A stretch of 64,000 nt of DNA from Burkholderiales bacterium. GTDB taxonomy: Bacteria > Pseudomonadota > Gammaproteobacteria > Burkholderiales > Burkholderiaceae_C. The stretch covers positions 1-64,000 of the forward strand of contig RXJQ01000040.1 in the NCBI GenBank assembly GCA_003963115.1, in the 5' to 3' direction. The notes under the pieces are model-generated. The model saw only the letters and a list, made by a program, of their open reading frames with translations, was not told where the DNA came from and did no database searches. Shown piece after piece: positions 49,512-60,392 of the stretch; the stretch's first letter is position 1; each line of letters opens with the position of its first letter. Made by a program: the position numbers and the translations under genes.

Positions 49512-50528
49512 TCAGGGAGATGGAAGGCGGCCCACGCTGAAGCGCATCCGATAGTCACCAGGGGATACCCCAAGCGCCAGGCGGAAGGCACGACGCAGGT
49601 TGTATTCACTGCCCAGGCCGGTCTGCTGCACCACGCGCTTGATGGGGGCCTTGCCGTCTTCCAGCAGCCAGCAGGCGCGCTCGATGCGCAAGCGGTTGAG
49701 CAGTTTGGAAGGGCTGAGCCCGGTTTGCGCCATCAGCTGTCTGTGCAGGGTGCGCTCGGAGACGGCCATGGCCCGCGCCATGTCGGCCACGCTGATGGCC
49801 TGCTTCAAGCGAGGCCTCAGCCATTGCATGAGCTGGCTGCTCAGGCCCTGTTCGTCGGGGTCATCGGGGATTTGGGCGAGCAGCTCGGCACTGAACTGGC
49901 GCTGGCCACCCGCGCGGCGAAACGGGATGACCAGCCGCTTGGCCACGCGCAGCGACAAGGCGCGGTCATGGTCGGCTTCGACCAGGGCCAGGCTCATGTC
50001 CATGCCGGCTGTGACACCAGCCGAAGTGTGGAACAGGCCATCGCGCACATGGATGGCGTCGTCCATCAGGTTCACTTGCGGGAACAACCGGCGGAACAAG
50101 GGCGCATCCTGCCAATGCGTGACGGCACGGCGCTGTTGCAGCAAGCCGGCCTGGGCCAGCACGAAGGCGCCCGTGCAGACCGAGCCGCAGCGGGCCACCT
50201 GGGCCGATGCGGCTTGAAGCCAGCGCATCAGCTTGGCATCGCGCATGGCGCCCTCTGTGCCATCCCCGCCCACCACGATCAGCGTAGCGCCTTGGAGGCT
50301 GGACGGGCGCGGCAATGAGGCCGTCTGCACCATCAACCCGCAGGAGGAGGCCAGCATGCCGCCGCTGGACGACACCGTGCGCAGGCGATAGCGCGGGCCT
50401 AGCGAGAGTTTGGCGGCTTCCTGGTCGGCCATGGCGAAGACCTGCATGGGGCCAGCCAGATCCAGCAGCAGGAAGCCGGGAAAGACGACCATCACGACGG
50501 CATGGTGAGTGCGGGATGTGGAAGACAT
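49512..50528 (-). CDS. GlxA-family AraC regulator with DJ-1/PfpI domain
   Basis: The protein (about 338 residues from ATG 50528) joins an N-terminal DJ-1/PfpI-like glutamine-amidotransferase domain to a C-terminal AraC helix-turn-helix pair. The first has GSVCTGAFVLAQAGLLQ around residues 112-128; the second reads ADMARAMAVSERTLHRQL. GlxA-type regulators usually control a neighbouring enzyme gene. It is divergent from a DJ-1/PfpI enzyme gene whose domain resembles its own sensor domain. The start is uncertain: 50585, 50555, 50534 and 50528 are in frame, and no ribosome-binding site is clear. Confidence 0.85.
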   Translation of the reverse strand: MSSTSRTHHAVVMVVFPGFLLLDLAGPMQVFAMADQEAAKLSLGPRYRLRTVSSSGGMLASSCGLMVQTASLPRPSSLQGATLIVVGGDGTEGAMRDAKLMRWLQAASAQVARCGSVCTGAFVLAQAGLLQQRRAVTHWQDAPLFRRLFPQVNLMDDAIHVRDGLFHTSAGVTAGMDMSLALVEADHDRALSLRVAKRLVIPFRRAGGQRQFSAELLAQIPDDPDEQGLSSQLMQWLRPRLKQAISVADMARAMAVSERTLHRQLMAQTGLSPSKLLNRLRIERACWLLEDGKAPIKRVVQQTGLGSEYNLRRAFRLALGVSPGDYRMRFSVGRLPSP

Positions 50529-50588
50529 GACCATGGATGAACGAGGTAAAGACATCGACGATTGGGGATGGCAGATTTTCACCATGAA

Positions 50589-50604
50589 TTGGCAGACATG
50601 CCAA
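50589..50604. promoter_or_regulatory. Candidate operator between GlxA-type regulator and DJ-1 gene
   Basis: TTGGCA-GACA-TGCCAA is a perfect 6-4-6 inverted repeat located 47 bp before the DJ-1/PfpI gene and 61 bp before the regulator's chosen start. Its place between divergent regulator and target genes fits a shared operator. Binding by the GlxA-type protein is inferred. Confidence 0.5.
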
Positions 50605-50650
50605 ACCGGTTTTTCGCACAATGCAGCTTCATCAAACAGGAGAACTCGAC

Positions 50651-51379
50651 ATGAGCCCAGTGACGAACCCAGTTGAGACAAGCCCCGAGATCCACATCGG
50701 CCTGCTGCTGTTTCCGCAATTGACCGTGCTGGACCTGATCGGGCCCTACGAAGTCCTGAGTCGTTTGCCGAATGCCAAGTTGGACCTGATCTGGCACAAC
50801 CTGGAGCCTGTGCGCACCGAGCACGGCCTGAGCCTGACACCAACGGCCACCTGCGACCAGATCACCGCACTGGATGTGCTGTGCGTGCCCGGCGGCTTTG
50901 GCGTGACGCCCTTGCTCAACCACGCGCCCACCATCGAGTTCATCCGCCGCGTGGGGCAGTCAGCGCGGTATGTGACCTCGGTGTGCACCGGCGCCTTGCT
51001 GCTTGGCGCGGCGGGCCTGCTGCATGGCCGGCGTGCGGCCACGCACTGGGCTTCGATGGACATGCTCGCCTCCTTCGGCGCCATCCCGACAGACGAGCGC
51101 TTCGTGCACGACGGCCCCGTGATCACCGGTGGTGGCGTGACCGCCGGCATCGACTTCGCGCTCTACCTGGCGGCGCAGCTGTATGGGCGTGAACTGGCCG
51201 AGTTGATCCAGCTGGCCATCGAGTACAACCCGGCGCCACCGTTCGATGCCGGGCATCCGTCACGGGCGCCATCGGTTTGCCTGAAAACGGCCAGGGAACG
51301 GGTGGCGCAGGCACAGGCCAAGCGGCGTGTGGAGGTGCAGAAAGCGGCCGGCAAACTGGTCGCGTCGACCCAGGCTTGA
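50651..51379 (+). CDS. DJ-1/PfpI-family protein (isonitrile hydratase-like)
   Basis: The 242-residue enzyme-like protein has the PfpI/DJ-1 fold with the nucleophile Cys112 in SVCTGALLLGAAGLL. Family segments are LFPQLTVLDLIGPYEVL at the N-terminus and HWASMDMLASFG. It resembles isonitrile hydratases (InhA), which hydrate isocyanides to N-substituted formamides, but other DJ-1 activities are possible. CAGGAG precedes ATG 50651. The regulator next door has a similar DJ-1 domain, so both may sense or act on related molecules. The last 30 residues are basic and helical. Confidence 0.82.
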   Translation: MSPVTNPVETSPEIHIGLLLFPQLTVLDLIGPYEVLSRLPNAKLDLIWHNLEPVRTEHGLSLTPTATCDQITALDVLCVPGGFGVTPLLNHAPTIEFIRRVGQSARYVTSVCTGALLLGAAGLLHGRRAATHWASMDMLASFGAIPTDERFVHDGPVITGGGVTAGIDFALYLAAQLYGRELAELIQLAIEYNPAPPFDAGHPSRAPSVCLKTARERVAQAQAKRRVEVQKAAGKLVASTQA

Positions 51380-52009: not shown

Positions 52010-52921
52010 ATGACATGGTCTGATCGCATCCGCGTGCTGGAACGCGGTTGGCTCTCGTCCAACAACATCGTGTTCCTGGACGAGGACGGTGGTGTATCCG
52101 TGGTGGACACGGGTTATGTCACCCATCTGGACGAGACCATCCGCCTGATCGACCAGGCACGCGAAGGCCGCCCTTTGCGGCGCATCGTCAACACCCACAT
52201 CCACTCCGACCACGCCGGTGGCAATGCCGGTTTGAAGGCCTTGCATGGCTGCGAGGTGTGGATCCCGCCTGGTGAAAGCGAGCTGGTGGACCTGTGGGAT
52301 GAAGACCGGCTGAGTTACCGGCGTACCAGCCAGCTGTGCCCGCGCTTCAGCTACGACAAGCTCATCCACCCCGATGATGTCTTGCGCCTGGGCGGTGAAG
52401 ACTGGCGTGTGCTGCCTGCCGCCGGTCATGACCATGCCATGGTCATGCTGTGGTGCGAGCGGCTGGGCACCCTGCTGTCGGCCGATGCGCTGTGGCAAAA
52501 GGGCTTTGGGGTGATCTTCCCGGAGCTAGCTGGCATGCCGGGTTTCGCGCAGCAAAAAGCCACGCTGGACCTGATCGGGCAACTGCAGCCCAGGCGGGTG
52601 ATCCCCGGGCATGGCGCGCCCTTCACCGATGTGGCGGCGGCCTTGCAAGCCGCGCACTCCCGCATCGACTGGTTGATGGAAGAGCCGCGCCGCAACTCCG
52701 ACAACGCCTTGAAGGTGCTGATGGCTTTCAAGTTGCTCGAAGCACGCCGCTTGACGCTGGCCGATTTGACGGCCATGGTGCGCACCAGCATCGAAGGCAA
52801 TGCAGCCATGCAGGTGTACTACCCGCATGACCCTGAAGCGATGGCGGCCTTCATGGCCGAGCAGCTGGTGAAGGCGGGTGCCGCCACGCGCGAAGGTGAT
52901 GCGGTGGTGGCGGTGGCCTGA
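52010..52921 (+). CDS. Metallo-beta-lactamase-fold hydrolase
   Basis: The 303-residue protein has the metallo-beta-lactamase fold: HIHSDH at residues 63-68 gives the HxHxDH zinc motif, and further ligands come from GHDHAM and PGHGAPF. A helical C-terminal extension (about 215-300) is like that of glyoxalase II or SoxH/FlaR-like hydrolases. A hydrolase acting on a thioester or lactone is possible; no substrate can be named. It is convergent with the ceramidase operon, 22 bp from its end. Confidence 0.87.
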   Translation: MTWSDRIRVLERGWLSSNNIVFLDEDGGVSVVDTGYVTHLDETIRLIDQAREGRPLRRIVNTHIHSDHAGGNAGLKALHGCEVWIPPGESELVDLWDEDRLSYRRTSQLCPRFSYDKLIHPDDVLRLGGEDWRVLPAAGHDHAMVMLWCERLGTLLSADALWQKGFGVIFPELAGMPGFAQQKATLDLIGQLQPRRVIPGHGAPFTDVAAALQAAHSRIDWLMEEPRRNSDNALKVLMAFKLLEARRLTLADLTAMVRTSIEGNAAMQVYYPHDPEAMAAFMAEQLVKAGAATREGDAVVAVA

Positions 52922-52943: not shown

Positions 52944-54995
52944 TCAATCCTGGCTGACCTGAAAGACACGGGACGTGCCGCTGAAAGGCGTGATCGTGCC
53001 GGCCAGCGACTTGGCGTCACCATGGTGGACGATGCGGTAGCTGCCAGGCGGCGTGTCCGTGGGGATGGCCCAGCTGATCTCAGCCGCAGACTCTGCGCCG
53101 AAGGTGCGCACCCAGTGGTAGCGCGTGGCCCAGTCGCCATCGTCGGCGACCATGCGCCATTGCCCGTCGACGAGCCTCTGCACTTCAAGGAAGGTGCCGT
53201 TGCGGTGCAGCTCGTTCTTGGGGTGGCCGCTCTGGAAGCGCACCTGCACGGTGTCGCCTCGCTTGTAGTGGCTGGCTGCGTCTTGCAGCACCTGGCCGAA
53301 CTGCTTGCCCAACGCAGGCAGGTCCATCAGCACACCGGGCTGGAAGTTCAGCTGGTGCGCGCTGAGATCGCGGGGGTGCAAGGCGCTGATGTCGACGCCG
53401 GGCTGGCCACTGGCCATGTCATGCGCGAGCCTGTCCAGCTCCTGCTGGTAGGCCGGCAGCGTGTAAGGCCCGAACAGCGTGCTGCCGCCTTCGTAGTCCT
53501 GGGCGCTGTATTCCTCGGGCGTGGTGATGTACTCGGTGTAGGCATTGCTGTAACCCACCACCAGCACCTGCTTGATGTCCACGCCCAGCGTGTGGGCCAG
53601 CGTGCGCCGGATGCGCCAGCCCGACATGATGGTGGGCTCGCCCGGCAGCGTGGCCAGGTAGAGCTGGCCGATGCGCAGCACCTGCAGGGGCAGGACTTCG
53701 GGCGCCCATGGATAGGGCTTCATCTCGCCGACGGGGATGACCACCTCCTTGACGCCATGGCATTGCCGCAGCGTTTCGGACGGCCAGAACAACAGGCCGC
53801 CCACGGCTTTGAGGAAGGGGTTGGACTGACCTTCTTTGGCGATGCCGGGGCCGGGGCCATCTTCTTCGCTGCCGGCGGCGAAGGTGCTGCCCAGGGCGGC
53901 CGGGCAGGTGTGGTGCAGCTGGCCATCGGGGGTGTAGGCCCCCGAGACCTGCACCTGGCTCATGTCGACGTAGCGCATGCGGTGGTCCACGGGGCCTTGC
54001 AAGGACTGTTTGGATTGGTTGGAGAGCGCCATGGCCTTGTCTGCCTGGCGCAGGCCGATCAGGCGCGTGTTCTCGAACTCGTCCTCGGTGGGGCCGCTGC
54101 CGGGCTTGAGGTTCAGGTTGGGGCTCATGTCCCCTGGATTGGTCTGCGCGAAGGCTGCCACGAAGGGGGTCTTGTCACGCAGGTAGCGCACGCCGGCTTC
54201 GTCATGCTCCCAATGGTAGGCCGCATAGCCCTTGTTGTCCCCACTGATGAGCGTGTTGCGGTTGGTCATGCTCGTGCCATGTGTGGGGAACAGGCTGAGC
54301 GCGCCAATGGGCCGGCCGTTCTGACGGAAGGTCAGCACGCTCATCAGCGGGTCGATCTCTTGCGGGAAGGCCGCGCGATCCGCAGCGGGGTTGAGGCGAA
54401 AGGCCGTGGCCGAGCGGTTGCGGCTGGCATTGGTGAGTTTACCCTGGTTGAGCAGGATGTCGCCAGGGGCCTTGCGCTGATGGGCCCGAACAATGGCTTC
54501 GACGATGCCATCGACGATGGCCTGGAAGGTCTTGGGCTGGAAGCCCAGGATGGTGATGTTGTAGAGCGCGTAGTGCGAGTAGCCGCCGGGCCCTGCGTGC
54601 GTGTGCGTGGCGCTGATCAGCACATTGCGCTCGTCGTACAGTTGGCCGTGCGGCGTGACGTAGAGCTTGGCCAGGCGTTGAAGCACGGCCTGGTGGATGG
54701 CCTGCGTGACCAGGCCCGTGTCGGTGATGACGATGACCACCGACTGGTGCGTGGTGGCGTCTTCCACGATGAAGGCCCGCGCACGCAGGCGCTGGTGGAT
54801 ACCGGCTGTCTTTTGGCCCAGCACGGCGTAGCCCATCATGCCGACCTCGGCGGCTTCGCCGGTGATGTCGCTCATGCCCACGCCGACAAGGTAGGGTTGT
54901 GAGGGCTGAGAGGGTTGGGGAAGGGCCTGCGCGCACAGCAGCAGGCCGCACAAGGCGGCCATGCACCATCGAAGAAGGCCTCGCAAGGCACGCAT
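52944..54995 (-). CDS. Neutral ceramidase (non-lysosomal)
   Basis: The 683-residue enzyme is a neutral/alkaline ceramidase, which hydrolyses ceramide to sphingosine and fatty acid. The nucleophile Ser291 lies in NPGDMSPN; family members usually read GDVSPN, so Met replaces Val. The zinc ligand stretch ATHTHAGPGGYSHY (about 106-119) and PTHGTS follow the family. A signal peptide covers about residues 1-28. Length is close to the Pseudomonas aeruginosa enzyme. It is the last gene of the cytochrome/FAD oxidase/PLP/DUF2147/Gcw operon, 11 bp after the Gcw-like gene. It would act in the periplasm or outside. The hydrolysis product, sphingosine, is toxic to bacteria, so linked disposal genes make sense. 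Confidence 0.94.
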   Translation of the reverse strand: MRALRGLLRWCMAALCGLLLCAQALPQPSQPSQPYLVGVGMSDITGEAAEVGMMGYAVLGQKTAGIHQRLRARAFIVEDATTHQSVVIVITDTGLVTQAIHQAVLQRLAKLYVTPHGQLYDERNVLISATHTHAGPGGYSHYALYNITILGFQPKTFQAIVDGIVEAIVRAHQRKAPGDILLNQGKLTNASRNRSATAFRLNPAADRAAFPQEIDPLMSVLTFRQNGRPIGALSLFPTHGTSMTNRNTLISGDNKGYAAYHWEHDEAGVRYLRDKTPFVAAFAQTNPGDMSPNLNLKPGSGPTEDEFENTRLIGLRQADKAMALSNQSKQSLQGPVDHRMRYVDMSQVQVSGAYTPDGQLHHTCPAALGSTFAAGSEEDGPGPGIAKEGQSNPFLKAVGGLLFWPSETLRQCHGVKEVVIPVGEMKPYPWAPEVLPLQVLRIGQLYLATLPGEPTIMSGWRIRRTLAHTLGVDIKQVLVVGYSNAYTEYITTPEEYSAQDYEGGSTLFGPYTLPAYQQELDRLAHDMASGQPGVDISALHPRDLSAHQLNFQPGVLMDLPALGKQFGQVLQDAASHYKRGDTVQVRFQSGHPKNELHRNGTFLEVQRLVDGQWRMVADDGDWATRYHWVRTFGAESAAEISWAIPTDTPPGSYRIVHHGDAKSLAGTITPFSGTSRVFQVSQD

Positions 54996-55006
54996 GGCGA
55001 TCAGTT

Positions 55007-55933
55007 TCAGAAGCGTTTGGCGATGCTGGCCATCAGTGCGGGCTTGTCGATGCGCTTGAGCGCGTCCATGGCCGTGTTGGGCGTGTTGGCGTAGTAGCTG
55101 TTGCGCATGCTGCCGCCCACGATATCGGCTTCGAAGTCCAGGCCCCAGCGGGTGTGGATCACACCGAGCTTGTAGTCCAGGGTGTTGAGGAAGGAGAAGT
55201 TGCGCACGGCGGTGTAGCCCACATGCGTGAGCAGCCTGGTGTTGCCATTGAGCGGGATTTTGGCCTCGACTTGCAGCAGCTGCGAACCCCGGCTGTTGCG
55301 GTAGCCACGGTCATAGCAGCTGCTGGCCTCGCCGAAAGTCAGGTCGCCTTGAATCTGCGCGATCTGGGCGGCGGTGCCACACACCACGGAGGTGTTGTTG
55401 CCGCGGAAGTCCTTGCTCAGTACCAGCATGTAGCGGGCTTCCATGATGCCGTAGCCGAATTCGAGGAGGCCGAAGGTGGTGTCGAAGTTGGTCTTGATCA
55501 CTTCGGCCGGGCCGCCCATGGCGTAGACCAGTTCGTTGTCGTGCAGTTCCACGGATGCGCCGGGGAATATCTCCTGCGCGGCGCCCACGCCGAAGTGCCA
55601 GCCCTCGGGCTTGCCCCAGCGGTAACCCAGGGCGCCGACGGCCGTGGTCTTGTTGCCATCGGGGAAGCTCTCTTTGGCCACGGTGCCCAGTTGCAGGTAG
55701 CCGAGGAAGCCCGATTCATGCGCCGCGGTGACGGTGAACTCCGCGCCGGGGCGGCGGTAGGTGTCGGACAGGCCGTTGGTGCGGCGGTCGGTCGACACCT
55801 TGGCCTCCATGTCGAGCGAGTAGGACTGGATCTCGGGCTCGCCCGGCTCGGCCGCATGGCTGGACGCGGATGCCGCCAACATGGCAGCCATCAGCACGGT
55901 AGACGAAGACAAGATGGCGGACAGGAACTTCAT
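55007..55933 (-). CDS. Gcw_chp-like (TIGR02001-type) outer-membrane protein
   Basis: The 308-residue protein has a Sec signal (about 1-28). The rest is beta-rich with alternating aromatic strands (for example GYLQLGTV, YRWGKPEGWHFGVGAA and RWGLDFEADIVGGS), consistent with an outer-membrane barrel of the Gcw_chp family. There is one Cys pair (VVCGTA and SSCYDRG). From memory the sphingosine-induced SphA of Pseudomonas aeruginosa belongs to a similar class; this needs checking. It is the fifth gene of the six-gene operon, suggesting lipid or product passage through the outer membrane. Confidence 0.7.
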   Translation of the reverse strand: MKFLSAILSSSTVLMAAMLAASASSHAAEPGEPEIQSYSLDMEAKVSTDRRTNGLSDTYRRPGAEFTVTAAHESGFLGYLQLGTVAKESFPDGNKTTAVGALGYRWGKPEGWHFGVGAAQEIFPGASVELHDNELVYAMGGPAEVIKTNFDTTFGLLEFGYGIMEARYMLVLSKDFRGNNTSVVCGTAAQIAQIQGDLTFGEASSCYDRGYRNSRGSQLLQVEAKIPLNGNTRLLTHVGYTAVRNFSFLNTLDYKLGVIHTRWGLDFEADIVGGSMRNSYYANTPNTAMDALKRIDKPALMASIAKRF

Positions 55934-56007
55934 GGTTGGACTCCAGACAAGAGCTTGGCGTGATGACGGCGTGGTGTGTTCAGTGGATGGTGCTCAGCGG
56001 ACGGCAC

Positions 56008-56463
56008 TCAGCGGGGTTTGCAGCCGGCGGGCAGCGTGGCCACGCGGCTCATCTCTTCGGTCTCGCCCAGGATCTCGGTGCCGATATAGGCCCGCAACGA
56101 GAGGGTGTCCTTGTTGACGCGCACCGTGGCCTTGTAGTTTTTCTTGGTGCGAGGGTCGTGCACCCAGCCGTCGCGCCAGGCCTCGTCCTCGTACTTCTTG
56201 AGCTTGGCGATCATCAGGCCGCAGGTGTCCAGCGGCGTGCCCGCATCCTTGTCCCATACGATGGTGGCGCACAGGGCGCTGGCCATGTCGGCACAGTCCG
56301 TGAATTCGATCACGGCGCCCTTGTCGGCGCTCAGCCACAGGCCTTTGGCATCGTTGGGGCCATTTGTGGTCTGGGCTGTGGTCTGGGCCGCATGGACCCA
56401 TGCGGATGTCAGCATGAAAGACAGGGCCGTGCACAGGCCGACGAAGGGCAGGCGCTTCATCAT
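56008..56463 (-). CDS. DUF2147-family secreted protein
   Basis: The 151-residue protein has a signal peptide (about residues 1-25, ending VHA). A DUF2147-type small beta-barrel domain follows, with GLWLSADKGAVIEFTDCADM and LRAYIGTEILGETE. Cysteines (DCADMASALC and TCGLM) could form disulphides. The family often accompanies lipid or envelope genes, but no activity is established. Operon position: 74 bp before the Gcw-like gene, 21 bp after the PLP enzyme. A lipid-handling role in the periplasm is inferred. Confidence 0.8.
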   Translation of the reverse strand: MMKRLPFVGLCTALSFMLTSAWVHAAQTTAQTTNGPNDAKGLWLSADKGAVIEFTDCADMASALCATIVWDKDAGTPLDTCGLMIAKLKKYEDEAWRDGWVHDPRTKKNYKATVRVNKDTLSLRAYIGTEILGETEEMSRVATLPAGCKPR

Positions 56464-56484
56464 CTTCAGATCTCCAAAAGGGCT

Positions 56485-57777
56485 TCAAGCCTGGGCCGGG
56501 AACACGGGCCACATCGTGGTGACGCGACCGTTCTCGTAAACGGCGATATCACCGAACTGCTGCAAGACGGCCTCGCTTTGCGTGGGCCTGAGGAACACGA
56601 AATCGTCGGGTTGCAGGGCCTGCTTGCCCGAACCCAGCAGGATCTGCTGGTTGGATGAAGGGCCGATCAGGCCGCTGGGGCTAAGGCCCGCAGGCGCGAA
56701 CGGCTTGGCCATCCAGTGGCCGCCATAGATGAAGACCGAATGACGCTGGTTCGCGTCCCACCACGCGGCGGCGGTGCCAAGTTCTTCCACGCCATCGGGG
56801 GCGACGAAGCGGCCGCTCTTGATGACGGGCGTGGCGATGAAGGCCGCGGACACGAAGTCGCTCAGCAAGGGGGAGTCGAAGTCGGATGGCTTGACCATGG
56901 CCGAGCCCACGGCCACCTCATTGGCCGCGCCAGTGCCGTCGTGCAGCCTGAAGCTGGGCGAGCCTGCGGTGTTGAGGGTGAGTGCCTGCCGATCTTGCTT
57001 GAGCGGGCTGGCCTGCATGAAGTCGGCAAAGCGCTGGTAGACCTGCTTGGCATGGGCACGCGAGCGCTCACGCAGGCCGCCGACCTCGGGGATCTTCTCG
57101 GTGTGGGCCTCGTAACCCATCAGGCCGGACCATCGCAGCAAGGGCTCTTCCTGGATGAGCTGCACCATGGTCTTGAGCACGTCCAGATCAGGCACGCCGC
57201 CTCGGTGCAGGCCCACGTCGATCTCGATGTTCACGCGCATGGGCCGGCGCTGGGCGCGGGCCAACTCGCGGTATTGCTGCACGCGCTGCGGCGTGTCCAC
57301 CAGCCATTGCAGCTGCTGACTGGCGTCGAAGCCGGACGTGGGGGGCTGGGCGTAAAAGCGTGCAACTGCGGCCACGGGCAAGGGCTTGCCCAGCAGGATC
57401 TGGCTTTGCGGGCGCTGCTGCGTCAGCAGTTGCAGGTAGGGCAGGTTGAAGACCATCTGCCGGTTGGTGCCAGTGGCCTGCGCGATTTCATCAAGCAGCG
57501 ACAGGCTGGGCAGGGATTTGTTGACCAGCCGCAGGTGCAGCTTGCCTTGCCCGTTCCCCTGTACATGGGCTTTCACCTTCTGCGCATTGGCATGCAGCCG
57601 TTCACGGTCGATGACCAAGGTGGGTGTGCCAATCCCGGCGGTCTTCAAGGCCTGGTTGAGTTGCGCGAAGTAAGGCTCGTAAGGTGCGCCCTGATCGCTT
57701 GGGCGCAGCGCCACGGTGCCGGTCACAGCCGCGATGCCAGTGGCGCCGAGGAAGCCGCGTCTGCTGATGAAGCTCAT
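56485..57777 (-). CDS. Tat-exported DSD1-like PLP-dependent enzyme
   Basis: The 430-residue protein starts with a Tat signal (SRRGFLGATGIAAVTG, residues 5-20), then an alanine-racemase-like PLP domain with the probable PLP Lys87 in RLVNKSLPS. Similar segments (NIEIDVGLHRGGV and GLMGYEAHTEKIP) place it near D-threonine aldolase/D-serine dehydratase (DSD1). The C-terminal His-x-Cys/His-x-Asp metal motif of those enzymes is replaced by RPTQSEAVLQQFGDIAVY, so metal-dependent aldolase activity is doubtful or altered. Export of a PLP enzyme by Tat is unusual. It lies 15 bp after the FAD oxidase gene. From memory the sphB gene of Pseudomonas may be homologous. Confidence 0.8.
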   Translation of the reverse strand: MSFISRRGFLGATGIAAVTGTVALRPSDQGAPYEPYFAQLNQALKTAGIGTPTLVIDRERLHANAQKVKAHVQGNGQGKLHLRLVNKSLPSLSLLDEIAQATGTNRQMVFNLPYLQLLTQQRPQSQILLGKPLPVAAVARFYAQPPTSGFDASQQLQWLVDTPQRVQQYRELARAQRRPMRVNIEIDVGLHRGGVPDLDVLKTMVQLIQEEPLLRWSGLMGYEAHTEKIPEVGGLRERSRAHAKQVYQRFADFMQASPLKQDRQALTLNTAGSPSFRLHDGTGAANEVAVGSAMVKPSDFDSPLLSDFVSAAFIATPVIKSGRFVAPDGVEELGTAAAWWDANQRHSVFIYGGHWMAKPFAPAGLSPSGLIGPSSNQQILLGSGKQALQPDDFVFLRPTQSEAVLQQFGDIAVYENGRVTTMWPVFPAQA

Positions 57778-57792
57778 GGTGGCATGCTCCGA

Positions 57793-59220
57793 TCAGGTCT
57801 TGACGAAGAGCTTGCGCAGGTGCGCATTGAGCATGCGGCCTTGCGGGTCGAACTGTTTGCGCACGGCCTGGAAGTCGTGCCAGCGCGGGTACATGGCTGA
57901 GAGCTCCGCCCAGCCCATCTCATGAAGCTTGCCCCAGTGCGGACGGCCTTGATGGGCGCGGTAGATGGGAGCGCAATCTTTGACCAGGTAGTCCCAGGGT
58001 TCGTCGGCCGAGGCGTGCACGGCGATCGAGCAGCTGTCGCGGCCATGGAAGGGGCTCAGCCAGGCATCGTCTGCCCGGATGAAGCGGAACTCGATGGGGA
58101 AGAAAGCCTCGTTGTGACGTTCGATGGCGGCGATGATCTGGCGCAGGCAGGGGATGCCCTGTTCGCGTGGCACATGCCATTCGGATTCGTTGAACTTCAT
58201 CGGCCGCACCGACGAGAGCAGCCTGAACGCGCGGTGGCGGGCCTCGTCCGTCATGTTCGGGTCGATGAACTTCTGGGCCGCCCACTGGCGCAGCTTGGGG
58301 AAGTGGCCCAGCCAGTCGCGCAGTGTGCGCAGGTCGGCCATCACGGCATCGTCACTGGGCTTGGGCAGCATCAGGTCACTGCCGGTGTAGATGTCATGCG
58401 AGATGGCCGCGCCATACCCGGTGAAGGGCAGGTAGTACATCTCGAAGTTGCGGTGCTGCTGGGCCAGTTGCGGTGCTTGCTGCAGCAGGTCTTCAATCGG
58501 GCGCAGCCAGACCTTGCGATGCAGGTTGTAGGCCGGCAGCACGCGCATGGTGACCTGCGAGAGGATGCCGAAGCTGCCCAGCGAGACACGGGCTGCGGCC
58601 AGCATGTCGCGGTCCTTGTCCTCATGCAGCTCGACGACCTTGCCGCCCGGCGTGACGATGCGCAGCCCCACCACATCGGCATGCAGCGCAGGCAGCGTGA
58701 TGCCGGTGCCGTGCGTGCCGGTGGAGATGGCGCCGGCAATGGTCTGCACGTCCACATCGGGCAGGTTGCGCAGGGCCAGGCCTTGCGCATCGAGCGCGCG
58801 CGACAGCATGCCCAGGCGCGTGCCGGCATGCATGGTGGCCGTCATGGCCTGCCGGTCCACCGAGATGAGGCCGGAGAGGCGGTCCAGCGAGACGATGCTG
58901 CCGCTGGTGGGCACCAGCGCCGTGAAGGAGTGGCCCGAACCGAAGGCGCGGATCTCGCCTTGGGCCGATGCCATCAGCGCTTGCAGCTCGGCCTCGTTGG
59001 CTGGCGTGGGCAAGGCGGCCGGCTGGGCCTGCTGCACGCCTGACCAGTTGTGCCATTGCAGGCCACTTGCAGTGGGTTTGGCGCTGCTTGGCGTGCTTTG
59101 CGCCAAGGCCGGGTCGGCCAGGCCCGCCGCGGCAAACAGGCTGCCCAGGGTGGCGGCCGCACCCGTGGCCATGAACTGGCGGCGCGGCAGGATGGTGTCG
59201 AAGTCGGGTTGGCTGTTCAT
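57793..59220 (-). CDS. Tat-exported FAD oxidase, arabinono-lactone/alditol oxidase class
   Basis: The 475-residue flavoprotein has a Tat signal (PRRQFMATGAAATLG, residues 13-27), an N-terminal FAD-binding PCMH domain and a C-terminal ALO domain ending near HWGKLHE. GSGHSF (about 92-97) carries the His that binds FAD covalently in this family. Related enzymes oxidise the C1 alcohol of polyols or lactones. The small cytochrome c gene overlaps its start by 4 nt (ATGA), so the oxidase probably hands electrons to the cytochrome instead of oxygen. Substrate is unknown; the ceramidase in the same operon suggests a sphingoid base. ATG 59220 sits inside the cytochrome stop region. Confidence 0.85.
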   Translation of the reverse strand: MNSQPDFDTILPRRQFMATGAAATLGSLFAAAGLADPALAQSTPSSAKPTASGLQWHNWSGVQQAQPAALPTPANEAELQALMASAQGEIRAFGSGHSFTALVPTSGSIVSLDRLSGLISVDRQAMTATMHAGTRLGMLSRALDAQGLALRNLPDVDVQTIAGAISTGTHGTGITLPALHADVVGLRIVTPGGKVVELHEDKDRDMLAAARVSLGSFGILSQVTMRVLPAYNLHRKVWLRPIEDLLQQAPQLAQQHRNFEMYYLPFTGYGAAISHDIYTGSDLMLPKPSDDAVMADLRTLRDWLGHFPKLRQWAAQKFIDPNMTDEARHRAFRLLSSVRPMKFNESEWHVPREQGIPCLRQIIAAIERHNEAFFPIEFRFIRADDAWLSPFHGRDSCSIAVHASADEPWDYLVKDCAPIYRAHQGRPHWGKLHEMGWAELSAMYPRWHDFQAVRKQFDPQGRMLNAHLRKLFVKT

Positions 59221-59588
59221 CGGTTTGTCTGGCTCATGAAGGCGATCAGGCCGCGCAGGTCGTCGTCGGTGCAGTCGCTGCACAGGCCTTTGGCGGGCAT
59301 GCCCTTGAAGCCCTCGCGGGCATGCTGGAGCAGCACATCGGCGCCTTGGGCCAGGCGCGGCTTCCAGGCGGGCTCAAAGCCGGTCAAGGGGGCCGCGCTG
59401 CGCACGCCATGGCAGCTCAGGCAGGCGCGTTCGTACTTGGCGGCCAGTTGGGCATCGGCTGGGCGCAGGGTGTCGGCGCGGGCCACGTCCTGGTCGCTGG
59501 GCGTCGGGGGCGGCCCGTCATGGCAGGCTGCCAGCAGGAGCACGGGCAGCCAGCTCATCGAGATCAGCGCGTGTTTGATCGGCGTCAT
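59217..59588 (-). CDS. Small lipoprotein cytochrome c
   Basis: The 123-residue protein has lipobox LAAC at residues 19-22, haem motif CLSCH at 56-60 and the axial Met candidate Met97 in GMPAKG, typical of class I c-type cytochromes. A second CxxC (CSDC, 103-106) lacks His and is not a haem site. It would be tethered to the membrane as an electron acceptor for the FAD oxidase, whose gene overlaps its stop. It is the first gene of the six-gene minus-strand operon and is divergent from the TetR gene. Confidence 0.88.
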   Translation of the reverse strand: MTPIKHALISMSWLPVLLLAACHDGPPPTPSDQDVARADTLRPADAQLAAKYERACLSCHGVRSAAPLTGFEPAWKPRLAQGADVLLQHAREGFKGMPAKGLCSDCTDDDLRGLIAFMSQTNR

Positions 59589-59635
59589 GAAAAAAGAAAC
59601 GTCGCGTTAAAAAAATACAGTGTTATCAGAATATG

Positions 59636-59735: not shown

Positions 59736-60392
59736 GTGGCCACCACTACCGCCAAAGAGACACGCAAACTGCGCGAAGCCGAACAACGCCGCAAGGCCAT
59801 CATCAAGATCGTGCGCAAGCTGATCAAGAAGGGTGGGCTGGAGGATGTGTCCCTGCGCAAAGTGGCCGAGCTGGCCGGCTACTCCACCACCGTTGTCTAC
59901 TCGCTCTTCGAAGACAAGGCCACGCTGATCACGCAAGCCATGGACGAAGACCTGCTGGAGCTCACCCGGGTGATGAGCGCTGCGGTTGCCGGGCACAAGC
60001 ATCCGCTGGACCGCATCAGGGGCATGGCGCAGGCCTATGTCCAGTTCGGCATCGCCCACCCGGCCGAATACGCTTTCGTGTTCATGCAGCCGCGCCCGCA
60101 TGCACCCAATGAGTCGGCGCGCGTGCAGCACGGCGACCCGACCGAGGACCCTTACGCCTTTGGGCGCAGCCTGTGGGCCGATGCCGCCCAGGCCGGGCTG
60201 GTCAGCACCCAGGATGTCGATATCGACCTGATGACCCAGATCTTCTGGGAGGGTATCCATGGCCTCACCGCTCGCCACCTGGTGATGGGGCCTGACGACG
60301 TGTGGTTTCCTACGGTGCCCGAGGGCCGCCATGTCGAGCTGATGATCGAGGTGCTGCTGACCGGCATCCAGCAGCAATTCAAGCCACGCTGA
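59736..60392 (+). CDS. TetR-family regulator, divergent from the ceramidase operon
   Basis: The 218-residue protein has a TetR helix-turn-helix (residues about 18-65, LRKVAELAGYSTTVVYSLFEDKATL). A C-terminal helical domain of the WHG type follows (IFWEGIHGLTARHLV). The start is GTG 59736 with GAGGAG nine bases upstream; an ATG far upstream would run through the divergent promoter. The N-terminal arm is basic (AKETRKLREAEQRRKAIIK). It probably represses the divergent operon and responds to a lipid-like inducer; both points are inference from position. Confidence 0.86.
   Translation: MATTTAKETRKLREAEQRRKAIIKIVRKLIKKGGLEDVSLRKVAELAGYSTTVVYSLFEDKATLITQAMDEDLLELTRVMSAAVAGHKHPLDRIRGMAQAYVQFGIAHPAEYAFVFMQPRPHAPNESARVQHGDPTEDPYAFGRSLWADAAQAGLVSTQDVDIDLMTQIFWEGIHGLTARHLVMGPDDVWFPTVPEGRHVELMIEVLLTGIQQQFKPR

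Follow-up and report, generated by a model that had tools for sequence, protein, structure and literature searches.

The closest described systems are the sphingosine-induced sph genes of Pseudomonas aeruginosa, with which we compare a six-gene operon at 52944-59588 (minus strand) of a 64,000-nucleotide stretch from a Burkholderiales bacterium (contig RXJQ01000040.1, positions 1 to 64,000), the whole of which is called the window. The sph genes are induced by sphingosine via SphR, and C1 oxidation and aldol cleavage of sphingosine were proposed by LaBauve and Wargo in 2014 (PMC3900636). Okino and Ito (2016) found the same genes raised with sphingomyelin (PMC5150637). According to DiGianivittorio et al. 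(2025), sphBC matter for growth of P. aeruginosa with sphingosine and sphD is dispensable; sphingosine accumulates in the absence of sphBC, and its loss depends on these genes (PMC11893366). In that study the product was not identified and a direct action of SphBC was not established (PMC11893366). Separately, colonies of Cupriavidus sp. TKC grow towards sphingosine, and no sphR-like gene was found there (PMC13293705).

The window operon is best explained as a TetR-linked, envelope-located operon for the breakdown of ceramide and sphingosine, and we give this explanation in full a probability of roughly 0.6; that the operon serves ceramide and sphingosine breakdown at all is very probable. In the proposed chain, the ceramidase would split ceramide into fatty acid and sphingosine, and a Gcw_chp-like barrel would let the lipid through the outer membrane. 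SphC would then oxidise the C1 alcohol of sphingosine to an acid, with the aldehyde hydrate as the probable intermediate, passing electrons to the lipoprotein cytochrome SphB, and SphD would split the oxidised sphingosine at C2-C3, outside the inner membrane.

The six-gene operon and its relatives

The operon, its regulator and the putative operator comprise the following features, where FAD is flavin adenine dinucleotide, PLP is pyridoxal phosphate and Tat is twin-arginine translocation:

59736..60392, plus strand: TetR-family regulator, divergent from the operon (PF00440 + PF13305; GTG start inferred via homologues)
59613..59627, no strand: putative TetR operator, a degenerate AATAACA-N-TGTTATT, placed by alignment with relatives
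59217..59588, minus strand: SphB homologue, mono-haem cytochrome c lipoprotein (PF13442; lipobox LAAC; CLSCH)
57793..59220, minus strand: SphC homologue, Tat FAD oxidoreductase of the alditol oxidase/aldonolactone oxidase group (PF01565 + PF04030)
56485..57777, minus strand: SphD homologue, Tat PLP protein with a D-threonine aldolase fold and an altered metal site (Ala_racemase_N)
56008..56463, minus strand: DUF2147 exported protein (PF09917)
55007..55933, minus strand: Gcw_chp-like outer-membrane barrel, probable lipid channel (PF09694)
52944..54995, minus strand: neutral ceramidase with a Sec-type leader (PF04734 + PF17048)

All six open reading frames were confirmed, and with near-abutting gaps of -4, 15, 21, 74 and 11 bp they bear out an earlier note on this DNA, which had described six closely packed minus-strand genes. 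Its domain calls agree with the Pfam and NCBIfam profile matches. Its impression that all six products look exported fits the predicted leaders: a lipobox on SphB, an RR motif on SphC, and Sec-like leaders on the DUF2147 protein, the barrel and the ceramidase, all by inspection, together with the Tat signal profile TIGR01409 on SphD (20.1 bits, cut-off 16.7). The SphC homologue scores 481 bits against TIGR01679 (cut-off 292). The barrel lies just above the Pfam cut-off (25.9 against 24 bits) and under the NCBIfam one, and its predicted structure is all-beta, with low confidence (pLDDT, the predicted local distance difference test, of 62).

A P. aeruginosa record from the plasmid collection, with sphB, sphC, sphD, sphA and sphR in consecutive positions, was used as reference. 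The window proteins are 52% identical to its SphB over 84 amino acids, 38% to its SphC over 424 and 46% to its SphD over 405. The earlier expectation that the cytochrome, FAD and PLP genes resemble sphingosine-induced genes thus held, in the same gene order. BLASTP of the barrel against SphA gave no match (best E 1.1). P. aeruginosa SphD gains a twin-arginine leader if begun at a GTG upstream of its annotated start. As an aside, a 93-kb P. aeruginosa "plasmid" (L032, NZ_CP070468.1) carries spoT, rpoZ, argB, dut and coaBC around sphBCD and looks like a piece of chromosome.

Both Pfam domains of the ceramidase are full length (N-terminal 606.9 bits, C-terminal 178.9 bits), and the protein matches the P. 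aeruginosa neutral ceramidase 2zws over residues 33-680 (E 2.8e-201). His131, His239, Glu453, Tyr489 and Ser291 align with the positions of 2zws which we take to be the zinc ligands and the catalytic serine, and are the candidate zinc-binding and catalytic residues. The score of 697 bits falls under the NCBIfam NF041649 equivalog cut-off of 1200.

Linkage was assessed in 84 loci, namely 80 named SphD loci (the best 80 of 567 found; 21 of the 80 under 20 kb) and four loci from plasmid records; since the 80 were ranked by likeness to the window, they are biased towards its relatives. SphC is present in 79 of the 84 and lies directly before SphD in 78, SphB is present in 64, and cytochrome, oxidase and PLP protein occur in that order in 63. 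DUF2147 is found in 11 and a Gcw_chp homologue in eight. The ceramidase joins sph genes in five arrangements. A survey for the six-gene neighbourhood, suggested in the earlier note, was positive: a TetR gene with sphBCD-DUF2147-Gcw-ceramidase recurs in Aquabacterium parvum (L036) and Massilia (L049), and the same order without a detected sphB in L046 and the fragmented L059. Elsewhere, the order is sphBCD-ceramidase (L038, L041) or ceramidase-sphBCD (L039), and the ceramidase is at a greater distance in L054 (8 kb) and, on the other strand, in L115 (5 kb). Beyond the named set, the order is sphC-ceramidase-sphD in L158, where the contig end truncates sphC, and the ceramidase is divergent in L162. 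DUF2147 and Gcw_chp genes without a ceramidase follow sphBCD in L045, L050, L051 and L153, and sphCD in L052. Given the order of sphBCD, the place of the oxidase before SphD and the recurrence of the ceramidase beside them, the gene set goes beyond chance.

Co-occurrence was counted in genome samples. In the family sample of 100 genomes, where true SphD was taken as E below 1e-90 (the next matches being 8e-10 or weaker), SphD occurs in nine and the ceramidase in four, all among the nine. With the window's own genome left out, all three ceramidase genomes carry SphD, against 8 of 99 overall (hypergeometric 3.6e-4); the two genes are 3.0 and 8.5 kb apart in two of them and on separate contigs in the third. 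The class sample of 369 genomes holds nine with SphD and 16 with the ceramidase (15 above the family cut-off), eight being shared. Once the own genome is left out, the ceramidase is found in 7 of 8 SphD genomes, compared with 15 of all 368 (hypergeometric 2.9e-10); among the shared genomes two belong to the same genus, SphD is matched by a fragment in one, and the SphD match of another contains an internal stop.

TetR, the putative operator and a parallel GMC cluster

TetR homologues 66-69% identical to that of the window stand beside the sph operons of L036, L037, L038 and L041, and the best paralogues in the own genome reach 25-28% over parts. The palindrome AATAACA-N-TGTTATT emerged from an alignment of the stretch between TetR and sphB in close relatives and was then scanned for in 143 loci (2.08 Mb). 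Seven sites have at most one mismatch. Four belong to the loci from which the motif was derived (L036, L037, L038, L041); the other three (L150, L171, L172), not used in motif discovery, all lie in the divergent promoter of a gene cluster with a GMC oxidoreductase. Eleven sites have two mismatches, of which those of L043, L045, L050, L153 and L162/L146 (L146 and L162 being one genome) precede sphB, that of L151 precedes the GMC gene and that of L149 lies 30 bp before the ceramidase start; those of L069, L161 and L166 do not fit the pattern. The regions of L042, L047, L051 and L148 have three-mismatch sites only, the scan found no site in the regions of L040, L044, L048 and L152 (Chitinimonas viridis, assigned through an identical protein), and at two mismatches it found none in L173. 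The ligand of the TetR protein would be sphingosine or a derivative.

The GMC cluster came from the order-level (Burkholderiales) sample of 340 genomes. Among the five opened first of its seven other ceramidase genomes, L148 and L149 have a ceramidase without sph genes. In L150, L151 and L152, genes for FadL and the ceramidase are accompanied by a divergent set, made up of a GMC oxidoreductase, an N-terminally extended aldehyde dehydrogenase and a DSD1-type PLP protein. The PLP protein is 24-26% identical to SphD and nearest BhcC by NCBIfam, far under the cut-off. The cluster was seen in six Chitinimonas/Chitinivorax-type loci (L150, L151, L152, L171, L172, L173). The ceramidase adjoins it in four genomes, and in two Chitinivorax genomes it sits on another contig. 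Of the 340 genomes, 6 carry the cluster's PLP protein; all six are among the eight with a ceramidase, and they represent only three genera. The remaining ceramidase match of the sample is cut by a contig end. No Tat leader was seen in the cluster by inspection. A TetR gene was found in L152, L171 and L173 and was not found in the examined stretches of L150 and L151; the L152 protein is 36% identical to the window TetR over 209 amino acids. From these sequences we infer that sph operons and the GMC cluster share a related TetR regulator.

Proposed chemistry and rival readings

The closest solved relatives of SphC are the FAD-binding protein 8ot8 and the alditol (xylitol) oxidase 2vfr. In an alignment of 84 sequences (that of the window and those of 83 loci, with shorter and broken sequences excluded), His97, Asp155, Glu377, Arg379 and Lys431 are invariant. 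The His, Glu, Arg and Lys line up with the 2vfr site, where they presumably serve as the FAD-linking His and the active-site Glu, Arg and Lys of alditol oxidase (AldO). Asp155 sits where 8ot8 and 2vfr both carry Ser, and we suggest that it holds the amino group. The preferred substrates of alditol oxidase have a glycol or 1,3-diol, and the enzyme carries oxidation on to acids (PMC4513209); this is in line with the 1,3-diol that sphingosine carries and with an acid as the C1 product. Oxidation of the C1 alcohol by SphC appears likely.

SphD has the D-threonine aldolase-type fold and the PLP lysine, in a fold group that holds D-threonine aldolase, D-serine dehydratase and hydroxyaspartate dehydratases (4v15, 6qkb, 3anu). 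In the D-threonine aldolase AxDTA, the metal ligands are His347 and Asp349 and the base is His193 (PMC4401734). The earlier note's link to the DSD1/D-threonine aldolase family holds for the fold and the PLP lysine and fails at the metal ligands and base; with these residues replaced, SphD cannot be called a canonical D-threonine aldolase. Its Arg192 is kept in 84 of 84 sequences; docking places the corresponding residue of AxDTA in a pair with the substrate carboxylate, and it also contacts the cofactor (PMC4401734). By our own Cahn-Ingold-Prelog reasoning, natural sphingosine oxidised to the C1 acid has the D configuration at C2 and is (2R,3R) when C2 and C3 are taken together, so that the earlier note's view of oxidised sphingosine as a D-threonine aldolase-type substrate stands for C2 and is weakened at the diastereomer. 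We put cleavage of the C2-C3 bond by SphD at about even odds.

Several findings weigh against the full explanation. The ceramidase is present in only 9 of the 80 named SphD loci and in none of the four plasmid loci. In the class sample L158 alone has the two genes side by side; in one further genome 22 kb lie between them, and in the rest they are on separate contigs. The order sample has six genomes with SphD and eight with the ceramidase, and the own genome is the sole overlap (0 of 5 others), which counts against a strict link. The window operator copy has three mismatches and is matched as well by 22 of 100 shuffles; not being significant alone, it is assigned by where it falls when relatives are aligned. 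The operator scan found no site in the regions of Massilia L046, L049 and L059. The dispensable sphD of P. aeruginosa, the product not found and the unproven direct action of SphBC add to this (PMC11893366). In a global profile alignment, AxDTA His347 is replaced by Gln in 81 of 84 SphD sequences and Asp349 by Glu in all 84, and the base His193 aligns with the variable Lys228 (Lys in 37, Gly in 21, Ala in 12, His in five and Ser in five of 84). Moreover, (2R,3R) is the diastereomer that AxDTA disfavours (PMC4401734).

These SphD substitutions speak for a variant in which breakdown proceeds as proposed but SphD is no aldolase: it would racemise, dehydrate or deaminate, or otherwise process the oxidised amino acid, or remove the reactive amino-aldehyde. 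The dispensability of sphD in P. aeruginosa (PMC11893366) and the dehydratases of the shared fold group fit this variant as well, which we regard as unlikely overall, though the strongest competitor. Less probable still, and partly overlapping the other readings, is that SphC halts at the C1 aldehyde, the unstable amino-hydroxy-aldehyde then decaying or being cleaved to aminoacetaldehyde and a fatty aldehyde, so that the operon would serve detoxification and not nutrition. The 2025 study names a very reactive aldehyde aldol as a potential product and shows detoxification as a public good in P. aeruginosa (PMC11893366). However, alditol oxidase over-oxidises to acids (PMC4513209), and the invariant Arg192 of SphD, despite its cofactor contact, corresponds to the residue pairing with a carboxylate in the AxDTA model. 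That the oxidase works on a sugar alcohol or lactone beside an unrelated ceramidase is very improbable: although TIGR01679 and the ALO domain include sugar-acting oxidases, the ceramidase linkage is repeated in differing arrangements, the genes are homologous to those that sphingosine induces through SphR (PMC3900636), and Asp155 is invariant where alditol oxidase carries Ser.

Class-3-like aldehyde dehydrogenases lie near sph genes in six loci (L035, L040, L050, L077, L155, L162). Those of L035, L040, L077, L155 and L162 are 42-56% identical to the Castellaniella (L050) enzyme, that of L035 being frameshifted and one gene away from an sph gene. The best solved relative of the Castellaniella enzyme is the steroid aldehyde dehydrogenase 9nxl (E 1.8e-114), followed by class 3 (1ad3) and the fatty aldehyde dehydrogenase 4qgk (E 1.4e-90); a homologue at 40% lies elsewhere in the own genome. 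As an indirect sign, these neighbours would fit a long-chain aldehyde product.

A broader and more tentative reading is that one TetR/operator system governs two independently built routes. Each would combine a ceramidase, a C1-oxidising module (SphB-SphC outside the inner membrane, or a leaderless GMC oxidoreductase and aldehyde dehydrogenase) and a DSD1-fold PLP enzyme without the metal site, which would cleave the erythro (2R,3R) C1 acid to glycine and 2-hexadecenal for class-3 aldehyde dehydrogenases. If true, the eukaryotic route through sphingosine-1-phosphate lyase would have here a counterpart that is independent of phosphate; the parallel cluster seems to reach the same chemistry through a different alcohol oxidoreductase.

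The chain of C1 oxidation and aldol cleavage put forward in the earlier note was a sound pathway assignment and not a new one, having been proposed in 2014 (PMC3900636). Its impression that a ceramidase within a TetR-linked sph operon is new was upheld: no description of a ceramidase inside an sphBCD operon, of TetR control or of the GMC cluster was found in search listings of the open-licence PMC literature. The present analysis adds the joining of ceramidase and sph genes in one operon, the TetR with its putative operator, the second module built on a GMC oxidoreductase, the aldehyde dehydrogenases near sph genes and the changes at the SphD site. With the operon and the GMC cluster, the idea of 2014 becomes a sharply testable pathway whose intermediates are defined and whose enzymes come from environmental bacteria.

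Neighbouring genes and comparison with known systems

One further gene may belong to the pathway:

52010..52921, plus strand: metallo-beta-lactamase-fold protein, convergent with the ceramidase (PF00753; membership uncertain)

Its homologues (69-71%) stand beside the ceramidase in L036 and L041 (Aquabacterium) and about 3 kb off in L038. An AraC-look regulator-like open reading frame and a divergent DJ-1/PfpI protein (PF01965) at 49512-51379, upstream of the region, are apparently unrelated to the operon. In other loci, a TonB-dependent receptor near sphBCD (L044, L048, L055, L056, L066, L067, L073, L107) is possibly an alternative outer-membrane importer, and a DUF819 membrane protein is linked to sphBC in Ruegeria and Yoonia (L034:9177-10322; L035:11597-12763). 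Yoonia SphD lies apart from sphBC, beside an AMP-binding protein and the frameshifted aldehyde dehydrogenase. An acyl-CoA dehydrogenase-like gene directly follows sphD in Hyphomonas and in an Acidobacteria-labelled metagenome-assembled genome (L080:11370-12512; L088:2866-4071); the two sequences are similar, and the latter genome is perhaps misbinned.

In comparison with the sphBCD/SphR regulon of P. aeruginosa, the window has the same order of cytochrome c lipoprotein, Tat FAD oxidoreductase and Tat PLP protein (PA5328-PA5326), and a neutral ceramidase is part of both. The ceramidase lies inside the window operon, whereas the gene numbers of cerN (PA0845) and PA5326-PA5328 are far apart. A TetR protein takes the place of the AraC-type SphR, the channel is Gcw_chp-like in place of SphA, DUF2147 is extra, and the adjacent AraC-type SphR and sphA that mark an sphBCD operon were not found beside these genes, sphA by BLASTP of the barrel. 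With 2zws the ceramidase shares both homologous domains and the aligned catalytic and zinc residues, in a different operon context.

SphC and AldO (2vfr) are alike in the FAD-linking His and in Glu, Arg and Lys; the Ser of AldO is the invariant Asp155 of SphC, and the electron acceptor is probably the cytochrome for SphC as against oxygen for AldO. Unlike the D-threonine aldolase/D-serine dehydratase group, SphD is predicted to be exported by Tat and has its metal ligands and base His replaced. The GMC cluster, finally, resembles the window operon in its alcohol oxidoreductase, DSD1-type PLP protein, ceramidase, related TetR where seen and, in some genomes, the same operator; it differs in having a GMC oxidoreductase and aldehyde dehydrogenase where the window has SphB-SphC, and FadL where the window has Gcw_chp.

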